DNA from: Oceanobacillus indicireducens
GTDB taxonomy: Bacteria; Bacillota; Bacilli; Bacillales; Amphibacillaceae
Direction of reading: 5' to 3'
DNA length: 36,118 nucleotides
Assembly: GCF_014647195.1 (NCBI RefSeq)
Contig: NZ_BMOS01000032.1
Location: 1-36,118, forward strand
Shown here: positions 3,347 to 32,642 of the stretch, piece by piece
How the letters are laid out: the number at the start of each line of letters is the position of its first letter
How positions within the stretch are numbered: position 1 is the stretch's first letter
Translations under genes and position numbers: made by a program
Notes under the pieces: generated by a model
The model's input: only the letters and a program-made list of their open reading frames with translations
What the model was told of the DNA's origin: nothing
The model's database searches: none

Positions 3347-5032
3347 ATGAAGTTACGCATGACTTTACTTGCTACATTGCTGATTTTTTTATTAGCACTC
3401 GTAGCGTGTAGTGGTGATGGTGGTGCCAATACGAGTGACACACCGGATGACGATGCGACAGAGACGGATGCAGGGGAAAATGAGGATACTGAAGCGGAAG
3501 AGGCGACTGCAGCCGGAGATCAAGTGTTAGTATTTGCTAGAGGCGGAGATTCTGAGAGTCTAGATCCAGGAAGCACGACGGATGGGGAATCTTCACGAGT
3601 TACCCATCAAGTGTTGGAAGGACTATTGACCTTTGAAAAAGATTCCTTTGAATTACTGCCGGGACTTGCCCATGATTGGGAAGTTTCTGATGATGGTCTT
3701 TCCTATACGTTCTACTTGGAAGAGGGAGTAACCTTTCATGATGGGACGGACTTTAATGCAGAAGCCGTAAAAACGAATTTTGAAAGATGGGCAGATCCAG
3801 ACCATGAATATGCATTCTCTGATGACGGTTATGTCTATTCCATGTATGGAACAATGTTTGGCGGGTATAAAGGGGAAGAAGGACATGTCATTGAAGAGAT
3901 TAATGTCGTAAATGACCATGAAATTGAATTTATCTTAAATCAGCCGCTTGGATTCTTCCTGCAAAATCTTGGGATGAGCTATTTTGCCATAACATCCCCA
4001 GCTGCACTGGAAGAGTATGGACCAGAAATTAATGAAAATCCTGTAGGTACAGGCCCGTTTAAATTTGTGAGCTGGACAAAGGATGACTCCATAGTCCTCG
4101 AGAAGTTTGAAGACTATCGAGTAGATGGTTTACCGAAGCTAGATCGAGTTATTTTTGAAGTGATTCCTGATAATGCTGCTCGGTTAATTGCACTCCGTTC
4201 CGGTGAAGTTGATATTATGGATGGACTGAATCCAGATGATGCTGAAGGGGTAGAGGCGGAGGAAGGTTTAGAGCTATTGACAAGATCAGAAAACAACGTT
4301 GGCTACCTTGGCTTTAATACACAGAGTGAGCCGCTTGATAACGTGGAAGTACGTCACGCAATCAATTATGCCATTGATAAAGAGGCAATTGCAGATGCTT
4401 TGTATGCTGGTTATGCTACAACAGCAAAAAACCCGCTGCCACCGGGATATTTAGGTTATAACGATGATGTCGAGGCTTATGAGTATGACCCGGATAAAGC
4501 GATTGAACTACTAGCTGAAGCAGGATTTGAGGATGGGCTTGAAATTGAATTGTGGACAATGCCGGTCGCGCGTCCGTATATGCCTGATCCGGAGACGGTT
4601 GCACAAATCGTTCAGAACAACTTAGAAGACGTTGGTGTGACAGCTAATATCGTACGTGAAGAGTGGGCGCCGTACTTGGAAAAGACATCCCAAGGTGAGC
4701 ATCAGTTGTATATGCTTGGCTGGTCTGGAACAAATGGAGACCCGGATTATTTCTTAAGCAGTCTGCTCCATGGCTCTAACATTGGAAGCAGTAACCGTGA
4801 ATTTTATCAAAATGATGAGGTCGATGAACTGCTGGATGCAGCAAAACGGGCTATTGACCAGGATGAGCGGGCTGACCTTTATGCACAAGCTCAAGAACTC
4901 ATATCGGAAGACTCGCCAATGGTTACACTTGTACACTCTACACCAGTAATGGCGACTACAAGTAATGTGCAAAACTATGTCCCGCATCCATCTACAAGTG
5001 AATCTCTGGCAGAAGTAGAACTGACCGAGTAA
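3347..5032 (+). CDS. appA: peptide-binding lipoprotein (SBP family 5), AppA type
   Basis: A 561-aa extracellular solute-binding lipoprotein. The N-terminal signal peptide ends in lipobox LVAC with Cys21 as the lipidated residue. It is followed by an acidic Ser/Asp/Glu-rich linker (about residues 22-58), then the family 5 fold, including LPGLAHDWEVSDDGLSYTF, NPVGTGPFKF and a long C-terminal lobe (YMLGWSGTNGDPDYF). It delivers peptides to the AppB/AppC channel. Start ATG with AAAGGGGGAT upstream. A stem-loop follows the gene and separates it from the permease genes. Confidence 0.9.
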   Translation: MKLRMTLLATLLIFLLALVACSGDGGANTSDTPDDDATETDAGENEDTEAEEATAAGDQVLVFARGGDSESLDPGSTTDGESSRVTHQVLEGLLTFEKDSFELLPGLAHDWEVSDDGLSYTFYLEEGVTFHDGTDFNAEAVKTNFERWADPDHEYAFSDDGYVYSMYGTMFGGYKGEEGHVIEEINVVNDHEIEFILNQPLGFFLQNLGMSYFAITSPAALEEYGPEINENPVGTGPFKFVSWTKDDSIVLEKFEDYRVDGLPKLDRVIFEVIPDNAARLIALRSGEVDIMDGLNPDDAEGVEAEEGLELLTRSENNVGYLGFNTQSEPLDNVEVRHAINYAIDKEAIADALYAGYATTAKNPLPPGYLGYNDDVEAYEYDPDKAIELLAEAGFEDGLEIELWTMPVARPYMPDPETVAQIVQNNLEDVGVTANIVREEWAPYLEKTSQGEHQLYMLGWSGTNGDPDYFLSSLLHGSNIGSSNREFYQNDEVDELLDAAKRAIDQDERADLYAQAQELISEDSPMVTLVHSTPVMATTSNVQNYVPHPSTSESLAEVELTE

Positions 5033-24808: not shown

Positions 24809-24943
24809 GGGGTATTGGCTAATTGGCTATAAGTGGTACATTAATTTTACAGGGGGTATTGGTTATATAAAACAAAAATGCGCAAAGTCTGCACAATTTT
24901 GTGATACTTATTTTGTTTAATGAATACTAAAGGGGGGTATTGT
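24809..24943 (+). promoter_or_regulatory. triple GGGGTATTG motif upstream of copB
   Basis: GGGGTATTGG at 24809-24818, GGGGTATTGG at 24853-24862 and GGGGTATTGT at 24934-24943, all on the plus strand. The last belongs to an ATAC..GTAT inverted pair (24924-24940) that sits between TTGTTT (24913-24918) and TATTGT (24938-24943), a possible long-spacer promoter. CsoR-family copper repressors bind G-tract sites ending in GTAT; the assignment is inferred. Confidence 0.45.
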
Positions 24944-25019
24944 ATGTTATGATTGAGATAAGGAAAATGGAATAAGTTGCATAGAGTCTTCAAATACTAC
25001 GAGACGGGGAGTGAAAATA

Positions 25020-30197: not shown

Positions 30198-31055
30198 GTG
30201 CAGTTCATCCAAGATTTACTAAACTACGAGTTCTTACAAAAAGCATTTGTCACTTCGATTGTAGTAGGAATAATCTGCGGGATTGTAGGAAGTTTCATTA
30301 TCCTCCGCGGCATGGCTTTAATGGGAGATGCTATTTCCCATGCCATTTTACCCGGGGTTGCGATTTCTTATATGCTTGGCATTAATTATTTTTACGGAGC
30401 TGTCGCGATAGGTATATTAGCAGCATTTGGTATAGGATTCATCGATCAACACAGTCGGATTAAAACTGATTCATCGATAGGGATCGTTTTTTCCGCTGCG
30501 TTTGCACTAGGAATTGTATTAATAACTGCAGCTCAAAGTGCAACGGATTTAACACAGATACTATTTGGGAATGTATTATCTGTTCGGAGCACGGATATGT
30601 GGATGACGATAATTGTTGGAATCATCGTTATCGCAGCAGTCTTGCTGTTTTTTAAAGAATTACTCGTTTCCAGTTTTGATGTGACGATGGCACAGGCTTA
30701 TGGATTGAAGACACGGATCATCCATTACGGTATTATGATATTACTAACCCTAGTCACGGTTGCTTCCTTACAAACGGTTGGAGTGATTCTTGTCGTAGCA
30801 ATGTTGATTACTCCGGCATCAACAGCTTATTTACTTACAAATCGATTATCGATCATGGTTATTCTTGCAGCATTTTTTGGAGCATTAGCTTCTGTCATTG
30901 GGTTATATATAAGCTTCCTGCATAATATGCCGTCAGGACCTATTATCGCGTTAGCGGCGACAGGGATATTCATCCTAGCATTTTTATTCGCTCCAAAGCA
31001 AGGCCTTATCTGGCGTATGTTGAAGACAATGAGGAGCAGGACTGCAAAAAGTTAA
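30198..31055 (+). CDS. mntC: manganese ABC transporter permease
   Basis: A 285-aa integral membrane protein of the ABC-3 metal permease family, with about eight or nine helices. Typical segments are SFIILRGMALMGDAISHAILPGVA near the N terminus (in parts ILRGMALMGDAISHAILPGV), FGNVLSV and VVAMLITPASTAYLLT. GTG start directly after the mntB stop, with GGAG 5 bp upstream, so coupled translation. One permease gene is seen, while B. subtilis mnt has two. Confidence 0.92.
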   Translation: MQFIQDLLNYEFLQKAFVTSIVVGIICGIVGSFIILRGMALMGDAISHAILPGVAISYMLGINYFYGAVAIGILAAFGIGFIDQHSRIKTDSSIGIVFSAAFALGIVLITAAQSATDLTQILFGNVLSVRSTDMWMTIIVGIIVIAAVLLFFKELLVSSFDVTMAQAYGLKTRIIHYGIMILLTLVTVASLQTVGVILVVAMLITPASTAYLLTNRLSIMVILAAFFGALASVIGLYISFLHNMPSGPIIALAATGIFILAFLFAPKQGLIWRMLKTMRSRTAKS

Positions 31056-31196
31056 AAACTAATATTGTAAAGTTGCACACTATTCGAGCTAAAAACGGGT
31101 GATCTATTGCAAATCAGAACAGATATTTTCATATTATTTTAGCTGAATTCTAGTGTAATGTACAAATTAACTACCATTTAATTACAATTATACGTT

Positions 31197-31312
31197 TGCG
31201 GCTTGGCATGAAGCCTCTGCGGGCATGGAATGTTGTGAAAGAGGAAACCGGCTAAACCCCGATTTCACAAGGCGTAAAGCCTACCATGCCCGCCTCTCCA
31301 TGTAAAGCCGTA
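31197..31312 (+). other. multi-stem structured element between mntC and mntA
   Basis: Nested complementary segments: outer TGCGGCTT (31197-31204) with AAGCCGTA (31305-31312); GCGGGCATGG (31219-31228) with CCATGCCCGC (31284-31293), 10 bp perfect; TTGTGAAA (31233-31240) with TTTCACAA (31263-31270); and AGGC-GTAAA-GCCT (31270-31282). GGCTT at 31200 can alternatively pair with AAGCC at 31211. It looks like a folded RNA, much more GC-rich than its surroundings. I do not recognise it as a named riboswitch. Confidence 0.6.
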
Positions 31313-31373
31313 TCACGGACTTTTGTTGGCATTTTCCAAACTGGAAACCGTGCCTAATGTGAAGGGAGAATAT

Positions 31374-32348
31374 GTGAAAAAAATGAAACAGACAAGAAAA
31401 AAGGTATTAGGATTAATCCTAACAAGTGTGCTTCTATTTGCATTAGCAGCTTGCGGAGGTGAAGAAGAAGATGCGGCAGGTGATTCGGAAGGAAACCCCG
31501 ATAAACCATTACAGGTTGTTACATCTTTTACGATTATTGAGGATATAGCGAAGGAAATTGGTGGAGATAACGTCGAAGTGCACAACTTGGTCCCAACAGG
31601 AACTGATCCTCATGAGTATGAGCCGCTTCCTGAAGATATTAAGAAGGCGTCAGATGCGGATATCCTATTCTATAATGGAATGAATTTAGAAGGCGGCAGT
31701 AATGGATGGTTTATGAAAATGATTGATTCGGTTAATCAGGATGAAGATAAAGTCTTTAGTTTAACCGATCGAGTTGAACCGATGTATGTCGGTAAAGATC
31801 AAGAAGGTGTGGAAGAAGAAGTCAACCCACATACCTTTATCGATCCCGTTGTAGGCATCTACATGGCTGAAGATATGAGGGATGCATTAATCGAAATCGA
31901 TCCCGACAACACGGAAGAATATAGCGAACGGGCGGAAGCGTATCTCGAAGTGTTGAAAGAAATCGATAAAAAATATGAGGAAAAAATAAATGAAATACCA
32001 GAAGAAAAACGTATTCTTGTGACAAGCGAACAAGCCTTCCAATATATGACAAACCGTTATGGGTTAGAAGAAGCTTATATTTGGGCTGTAGATACGGAGG
32101 AAAACGGGACTCCGCAACAAATCACATCACTTGTAGATTATCTCAAAGAAAATGATGTTCGTACTCTATTTGTCGAGTCGAATGTGGACACGCGGCCAAT
32201 GGAAACCGTATCAAATGAAACGGGAATTCCAATTTATGAAAAGCCTATTTATTCAGATGAAATCGGCGAGAAAGGCAGCGAAGCGGATACGTATGTTAAA
32301 TATTTGGAATATAATATTGAGGTAATCTCGGATGGATTAAGGGAGTAA
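31374..32348 (+). CDS. mntA: manganese-type metal-binding lipoprotein
   Basis: A 324-aa solute-binding protein of cluster 9 (TroA/PsaA/ZnuA). Signal peptide with lipobox LAAC and lipidated Cys27. Expected metal ligands are His in TDPHEYEP, His in NPHTFIDP, Glu in LFVESNVD and Asp in YSDEIG. This His-His-Glu-Asp set, with no His-rich loop, points to manganese or iron and not zinc. GTG 31374 was chosen because AGGGAG is 5 bp upstream; ATG 31383 is the alternative. It follows its ATPase and permease after a 318-bp gap with a structured element, so it may be separately regulated. Confidence 0.9.
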   Translation: MKKMKQTRKKVLGLILTSVLLFALAACGGEEEDAAGDSEGNPDKPLQVVTSFTIIEDIAKEIGGDNVEVHNLVPTGTDPHEYEPLPEDIKKASDADILFYNGMNLEGGSNGWFMKMIDSVNQDEDKVFSLTDRVEPMYVGKDQEGVEEEVNPHTFIDPVVGIYMAEDMRDALIEIDPDNTEEYSERAEAYLEVLKEIDKKYEEKINEIPEEKRILVTSEQAFQYMTNRYGLEEAYIWAVDTEENGTPQQITSLVDYLKENDVRTLFVESNVDTRPMETVSNETGIPIYEKPIYSDEIGEKGSEADTYVKYLEYNIEVISDGLRE

Positions 32349-32491: not shown

Positions 32492-32520
32492 TTGACTTTT
32501 TACCCGGTGGGGTATATGAT
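32492..32520 (+). promoter_or_regulatory. promoter P1 of the sulfur operon with operator in its spacer
   Basis: TTGACT (32492-32497), 17-bp spacer, TATGAT (32515-32520). The spacer contains TACCCGGTGGGGTA (32501-32514), an inverted TACCC/GGGTA pair that ends exactly at the -10. A repressor there would exclude RNA polymerase. The site type fits CsoR/CstR-family operators (inference). Confidence 0.75.
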
Positions 32521-32611: not shown

Positions 32612-32642
32612 TTACCATTAAATATACCCACGTGGGTATAAT
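32612..32642 (+). promoter_or_regulatory. promoter P2 with perfect 18-bp palindromic operator
   Basis: TATACCCACGTGGGTATA (32623-32640) is a perfect palindrome overlapping a TATAAT -10 (32637-32642). A weak TTACCA (32612-32617) lies 19 bp upstream. The palindrome has the same TACCC/GGGTA halves as the P1 site. Confidence 0.65.

Follow-up and report, generated by a model that had tools for sequence, protein, structure and literature searches.

Based on comparisons with its other copies, with syntenic relatives and with covarying homologs, the insertion between two metal-transport genes of Oceanobacillus indicireducens is best explained as a truncated mini-transposon that carries a transposon-serving single-strand module, with a probability of roughly 0.65. 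The insertion lies in a window of 36,118 nucleotides, which is the whole stretch of DNA that was analysed (contig NZ_BMOS01000032.1). In the proposed course of events, a mini-transposon with ends of the rve/Mu-C and AAA ATPase type (TGTAAA ends, 7-bp duplications in relatives) may have inserted itself between the permease gene and the lipoprotein gene. Its core would be a transposon-serving module that occurs in Firmicutes both in mini-transposons and in insertion sequences of unrelated families, located mostly right past the transposase stop codon, and would act as a minus-sense single strand, either RNA or single-stranded DNA. The folded strand could be a docking site that aids the element, in the form of structured RNA or of a promoter or primer site made of single-stranded DNA. 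The mobility signature, the empty site, the copy number, the conserved paired structure, the placement and the accessory nature of the core are established by observation, and the docking-site mechanism is put forward with moderate to low confidence.

The gene upstream of the insertion (30198-31055, plus strand), named mntC in an earlier sequence-only reading of this DNA, encodes an ABC-3 metal permease (Pfam PF00950, 1.1e-80), and the downstream gene (31374-32348, plus strand), named mntA there, encodes a ZnuA-type metal-binding lipoprotein (PF01297, 1e-83). By eye, the lipoprotein gene starts at GTG 31374 or ATG 31383; the start in the open reading frame list is TTG 31323. When the lipoprotein was searched in 26 genomes of the genus at E 1e-40, seven genomes matched, including its own. 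The permease-lipoprotein gap measures 33, 21, 21, 34 and 34 nt in five of the relatives (L184-L188) as opposed to 318-327 nt in the window, and represents an empty site; the sixth matching relative (L189) has a different gene order. Elsewhere in the window, ACCC..GGGT palindromes were observed at 32500-32517 (TTACCCGGTGGGGTATAT) and 32624-32639 (ATACCCACGTGGGTAT) before a TusA/rhodanese gene, which resemble CsoR/CstR-type operators.

The inserted segment (31066-31363, plus strand) is MITE-like, as no open reading frame of 80 aa or more occurs within its 298 bp, and it aligns with a second copy on contig 60 of the same genome (89% over 206 nt; 87% over 298 nt). The alignment of the two copies begins sharply at TGTAAAGTTGCAC (position 31066), the intact left tip of the window copy, and the window copy ends near 31363, where the right tip of about 24 bp is missing; the sister copy extends to GTGGATATTTACA and is flanked by the 7-bp direct repeat CAAGTGG. 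Alignment with the copies places the left end with its TGTAAA tip at 31066-31195 and the remaining right end at 31314-31363, both on the plus strand. Terminal inverted repeats of the form TGTAAA...CAC / GTG...TTTACA occur in the sister copy and in relatives, and 7-bp target duplications were observed in relatives (ATCATGA in L061, ATATTAC in L076); the window copy, which is without the right tip, shows no duplication. Because the sister copy and the relatives carry a right tip and a duplication, the window copy would be a mini-transposon with a lost right tip, and it is from these other copies that we infer its insertion, its own right tip and target duplication being lost. A third, diverged copy in the same genome (contig 59; L273, 1858-1973) adjoins, by eye, the 3' end of an IS3-type transposase gene. 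As a separate observation, the L076 copy (about 3986-4287; the same place as L205) is a window-type mini-transposon lying inside a CRISPR-array repeat, so that its duplication is one of repeat sequence.

When the right end of a relative was searched in 299 genomes of the order, 14 genomes gave matches, and the own genome gave none to this query. Several of the matching loci contain a two-gene element composed of an rve/Mu-transpos_C transposase and an AAA_22 ATPase, and their right ends resemble the MITE ends. Elements of this type in other genomes of the order, with their similar right ends, thus qualify as autonomous partners, and an IS21 origin of the window element's ends was replaced by this assignment. 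The core was detected with the covariance model R1, which was built from 77 collected sequences including that of the window, in six of the 26 right-end loci, and an ATPase open reading frame was seen in none of those six. Among 18 core-carrying genomes, the core is absent from both whole rve/AAA loci that share the window element's ends (0/2) and from all 14 ISL3 loci, and it is present in 8 of 30 IS256 loci (IS256 occurs in 12 of the 18 genomes); these locus counts include truncated loci. The core is hence an accessory of insertion sequences. The window MITE thus combines ends that belong to a single transposon type with a module that other types use.

A core-derived pattern was found in genome contigs in at least 119 stretches at unrelated places, many of them in short elements with inverted repeats or after transposases; by title, 114 of 119 are from Bacilli and five from Clostridium or Pelotomaculum. 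With R1, the core was detected in 85 of 159 genomes (36 of 46 genera) of the GTDB family at E 0.001, in 147 of 397 genomes (80 of 135 genera) of the order at E 1e-5 with at most nine candidates scored per genome, and in 23 of 398 genomes (21 of 267 genera) of the phylum. Plasmid records matched as well (eight with one query and two with another), among them an Aeromonas plasmid that carries the core (L022, 3999-4116) with an IS3 transposase outside Firmicutes. A phage collection gave no core match, and two IMG/VR contigs match the core pattern. In Paenibacillus popilliae ATCC 14706, five copies of a 248-bp core-bearing element (L025, L063, L071, L123, L141) are 99-100% identical, which indicates recent activity. 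A core-bearing IS3 element (L058, L086, L122) of Brevibacillus panacihumi W25 recurs at 100% identity over 1.4 kb in a record named Clostridium liquoris, which would reflect either recent transfer or contamination.

Transposase-less copies measure 200-310 bp, and some are 99-100% identical at several sites in one genome. Inverted flanks were found at 45 of 137 distinct loci (drawn from 176 after removal of alike ones) compared with 3.5% of cross pairs, and under a stricter score at 24 of 137 compared with 0.7%; the core itself served as bait for these loci, and its retention in MITEs is therefore in part a matter of ascertainment. Among 83 distinct open reading frames whose 3' end lies within 160 nt of a core, at least 33 are of transposase type (15 rve, 11 Transposase_mut, 2 IstB, 2 Transposase_20, and one each of UPF0236, ISL3 and Y1), compared with at least two rve and at least one DDE_Tnp_1 among the 36 distinct frames whose 5' end lies within this distance; the counts are lower bounds taken from the 25 commonest families of each listing. 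Measured as far as the inner core, and with repeated records of a single place counted, the distance is at most 51 nt for 20 of 28 IS3 matches and at most 61 nt for 18 of 22 IS256 matches, all with the 3' end facing the core; the other IS3 and IS256 matches are 72-1197 nt away or overlap it. One ISLre2 match lies at 73 nt, and one IS110 match lies within 32 nt (L159), with the other IS110 matches at 303-404 nt. In a distant set, two istB genes, one ISL3, one Y1 (IS200) and three IS3-type genes face the core with their 3' ends at 7-79 nt. In several unrelated insertion-sequence families, the core therefore lies mostly 0-80 nt past the transposase stop codon.

The orientation of the core relative to the transposase is not constant: it is opposite in the 20 cases near IS3 and the same in the 18 near IS256, and in two distant IS3 elements (L252, L258) the core has the orientation of the transposase. 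No orientation bias of solo cores relative to neighbouring genes was apparent by eye. The other neighbours viewed are ordinary genes beside short elements and a few mobile genes, namely a rolling-circle-type replication gene (PF23343; L261, 617-1501, with the core downstream), an integrase gene (L262) and a group II intron gene (L233). The L233 core lies 43 nt past the intron reverse-transcriptase frame, within what looks like a short element that was inserted at this place. Mobilisation of the REP type by a Y1 transposase was considered as well; one core (L263) adjoins a gene for such an enzyme. At L105, the transposase lies, by inspection, outside the MITE, and a transposase or mobile gene beside a core is thus not always that of the core's own element. 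An assignment of L073 to IS21 was not supported. Insertion of the core independently, as an element of its own, is not favoured, because in the IS256 and IS3 groups its position is constant and its sequence diverges along with that of the element. Core identity is higher than that of either flank in three of the five groups and not in the other two.

The R1 match to the structured core (31196-31313; 92.2 bits over model positions 1-116 of 116, the window sequence itself being among the 77 model sequences) coincides with the GC-rich block placed at 31197-31312 by the sequence-only reading, and all of the helices named there are present. The outer closing stem P1 is formed by 31200-31213 (GGCTTGGCATGAAG) and 31296-31309 (CTCCATGTAAAGCC), the 10-bp perfect stem P2 by 31219-31228 and 31284-31293 (GCGGGCATGG/CCATGCCCGC), and an 8-bp stem by 31233-31240 and 31263-31270 (TTGTGAAA/TTTCACAA). 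Within the latter, repeat A (GTGAAA, 31235-31240), the first arm of P3, pairs with 31263-31268 in competition with a diverged repeat B, and the GTAAA-loop hairpin P4 (GGC-GTAAA-GCC) occupies 31271-31281; these positions are given on the plus strand. Between P1 and P2, the internal-loop strand CCTCT (31214-31218, plus strand; AGAGG on the minus strand) is invariant in alignment A2, with deviations in a few distant relatives. The near-invariant letters of the core are this internal loop, the minus-strand GTCAAG arm, and the TA and T of a TA-NNN-T motif. Folding of 31190-31320 as RNA gave -55.8 kcal/mol for the plus strand (z -4.91) and -54.1 kcal/mol for the minus strand (z -5.06), values that none of 200 shuffles equalled in either case, and the two strands of the window core itself are equal in energy (-51.8 and -52.0). 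No terminator-like site was found near the window core, and a reading as a terminator was rejected for this reason; a reading as an open reading frame was rejected because core length varies from 76 to 102 nt and not by threes.

Rfam 15 gave nothing over the block at gathering score and, up to E 10, a single weak partial match to neisseria_FSE (E 1.7; 15 bits as against a threshold of 50). The absence of any yybP-ykoY match at either level bears out the claim that the block is not this manganese riboswitch. No match over the core was obtained at 13 other core loci either, which leaves the core outside every Rfam family in the 14 sources scanned. In another part of the window (24814-24929, minus strand), a match to STnc540 scored 38.2 against a threshold of 38 with a weak fold (z -1.21) and is probably due to chance; that segment, which precedes a P-type ATPase gene at 25011, contains several GGGGTATTG repeats.

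Covariation over 77 distinct sequences confirmed the four-helix fold as genuine. Paired cells amount to 89.9%, both-sided changes occur in 18 of 33 pairs, and the covariation of 0.213 exceeds that of shuffled alignments (0.097; reached in 0 of 500) and of slid ones (at most 0.084). The number of further pair types, one of five measures used, is 45 as against 40.8 and was reached by 22 of 500 shuffles. In P3, a single 3' arm has two upstream repeats as possible partners, and covariation is seen for each pairing (0.359 as against 0.131 shuffled, and 0.390 as against 0.181 shuffled); a two-state third stem is therefore plausible. This is distinct from the GGCTT/AAGCC switch proposed earlier, which can pair in the window as described and whose equivalent 4-bp pairing is available in only 34 of 77 relatives, in contrast to 67 of 77 for the outer stem.

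The strand that folds can be read from the mismatches. In the helices written as plus strand, A-C combinations greatly outnumber G-T (134 as against 35 in the 77 sequences), and an A-C there is a G-U on the minus strand; the minus strand is for this reason taken as the folding one. Of the 134 A-C cells, 50 come from two column pairs, without which the excess is 84 to 33; by pair, 17 lean one way, eight the other way and eight are equal. The lean recurs by group (16 to 6 in IS3, 14 to 3 in IS256, 2 to 0 in IS110 and 95 to 21 in the rest) and in a held-out set of 71 sequences less than 95% like any model sequence (118 to 35; by sequence 53 to 2, with 16 equal), and at an 85% cut-off it is 86 to 30 in 56 sequences. 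The minus strand is also predicted to be lower in energy in 66 of 77 sequences. Double-stranded DNA in cruciform shape predicts no strand bias, and the working form is thus probably the single-stranded minus strand, as RNA or DNA, opposite to the mnt operon.

On this strand, a loose promoter-like pattern, TT(T/G)Ann followed after 16-18 nt by TAnnnT, was found in 66 of the 71 held-out sequences and in only two on the plus strand; in a larger set of 85, some also in the model set, it was found in 79 on the minus and three on the plus strand (A-C 140, G-T 43). The -10-like part of the window core is TAGGCT (31278-31283, minus strand), placed by its sequence and the family pattern, and the core at L263 has TTTACA-16-TACAAT. 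The pattern resembles a promoter, and it lies on the strand that folds. Because the pairing itself is under selection and is accompanied by this pattern, a promoter that requires a folded single strand would join both simply, and other readings may do so as well; the 17-nt spacing could result from the fold alone.

The simple role of a 3' untranslated region receives no support, because the core occurs in either orientation to the transposase, and two further points weigh against the preferred explanation of a transposon-serving single-strand module: the minus strand would run antisense in elements of the IS256 type, and a promoter does not account for the AGAGG loop. A small structured minus-strand RNA could act on the element in trans or in cis, for instance by way of its AGAGG loop and GUCAAG arm. 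This version is a tentative possibility, less likely than not, consistent with the G-U bias of the minus strand, the covarying alternative P3 pairings and the near-invariant loop bases, but the missing terminator-like site and the flanks that differ between families speak against it. A single-stranded-DNA promoter or priming site, at which folded minus-strand DNA would offer -35 and -10 sequences to RNA polymerase and prime second-strand synthesis of transposition or transfer intermediates, is somewhat unlikely. The minus-strand pattern, the predicted folding of the minus-strand core as DNA (-28.8 kcal/mol, z -4.57), the free orientation relative to the transposase and the core past the rolling-circle-type gene agree with such a site; of the 79 matches, however, 25 have the poor TTTATA as their -35-like part, the -10 is GC-rich and paired at positions 3-5, the spacing is perhaps set by the fold, and AGAGG conservation is left unaccounted for.

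The most specific version, a plug-in module whose strand-specific fold was taken up separately by about seven unrelated insertion-sequence families and by mini-transposons, for the most part immediately past the transposase gene and in either orientation, to serve elements with circular or single-stranded intermediates as an RNA or as a promoter or primer site on a single strand, is unlikely in all its parts together. A double-stranded or cruciform site near the transposon end, serving as a transcription barrier or for protein binding, is improbable: the core is a near-palindrome that folds on both strands close to an end, but it has no terminator-like tail and the strand bias is strong in two sequence sets. 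A leader that regulates the lipoprotein gene in cis, in response to metal (the first option of the sequence-only reading) or otherwise, is very improbable despite the stable fold ahead of that gene, since the same module occurs at the many unrelated genomic locations which that reading had named as contrary to an mnt-specific regulator, is absent from the mnt locus in five of five syntenic relatives, and probably folds on the strand opposite to the operon. A role of the core as a manganese-sensing leader is not supported, and any effect on mntA would be a by-product of the insertion; the suspected origin from a mobile element was correct, in that the block is the centre of a mini-transposon.

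If the preferred module helps transposons generally, insertion sequences of Firmicutes that are not otherwise related would have it in common as an accessory, one that matches nothing in Rfam 15 in the 14 sources scanned. Structured, GC-rich intergenic blocks with the look of riboswitches would find an explanation as well, and the covariance model would let annotators drop such blocks from riboswitch candidates and mark hidden mini-transposons. In the literature search, no description of the core module was found by title or abstract start, and the core sequence string returned only unrelated titles among those listed.

The F plasmid Frpo, the phage M13 ori(-) and sso are single-stranded-DNA promoters. 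The core is similar to them, by description and not by sequence comparison, in its putative folded single strand with -35- and -10-like parts; unlike them, it is carried by insertion sequences, and its promoter role is putative. Omega-RNAs and HEARO RNAs are likewise structured elements close to a transposon end, but the core has no Rfam match, the transposases beside cores are of IS3, IS256, IS21 and other types, and the window block has transport genes, not tnpB or iscB, as neighbours (among the Pfam families near cores, the 25 commonest of 91 were viewed). The suggestion of an omega-RNA-type relic is not borne out by these comparisons, as Rfam gave no match and the ends of the host element are of the rve/Mu-C and AAA-ATPase type and not of the IS200/IS605 type.

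According to two studies (PMC11109978, PMC8632094), structured mobile or repeat candidates are already a known class. The GC-IGR pipeline of the former counted 250 mobile/repeat sequence candidates (MRSC), described there as structured, multi-copy and sometimes transposase-associated motifs, in which the choice between RNA and DNA is left open as it is here. MRSC-65-2, the one described candidate with which the core was compared, consists of one long stem that carries UYCCGG repeats, in contrast to four helices and AGAGG in the core, and the core may be identical with one of the 250 candidates. REP/BIME palindromes and the bcr and Bhal repeats are similarly palindromic or stem-loop, multi-copy and intergenic; Bhal-1, a 74-bp Bacillus halodurans repeat (PMC2267715), might or might not be kin. 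Relative to these repeats, the core is longer, multi-helix and often located beside transposase stop codons. Like MITEs, the element in the window and its relatives are short and ORF-less and occur in several copies, with terminal inverted repeats and target duplications in the sister copy and relatives, and unlike MITEs they possess at their centre a long conserved structured core that is common to MITEs and to insertion sequences of unrelated families.
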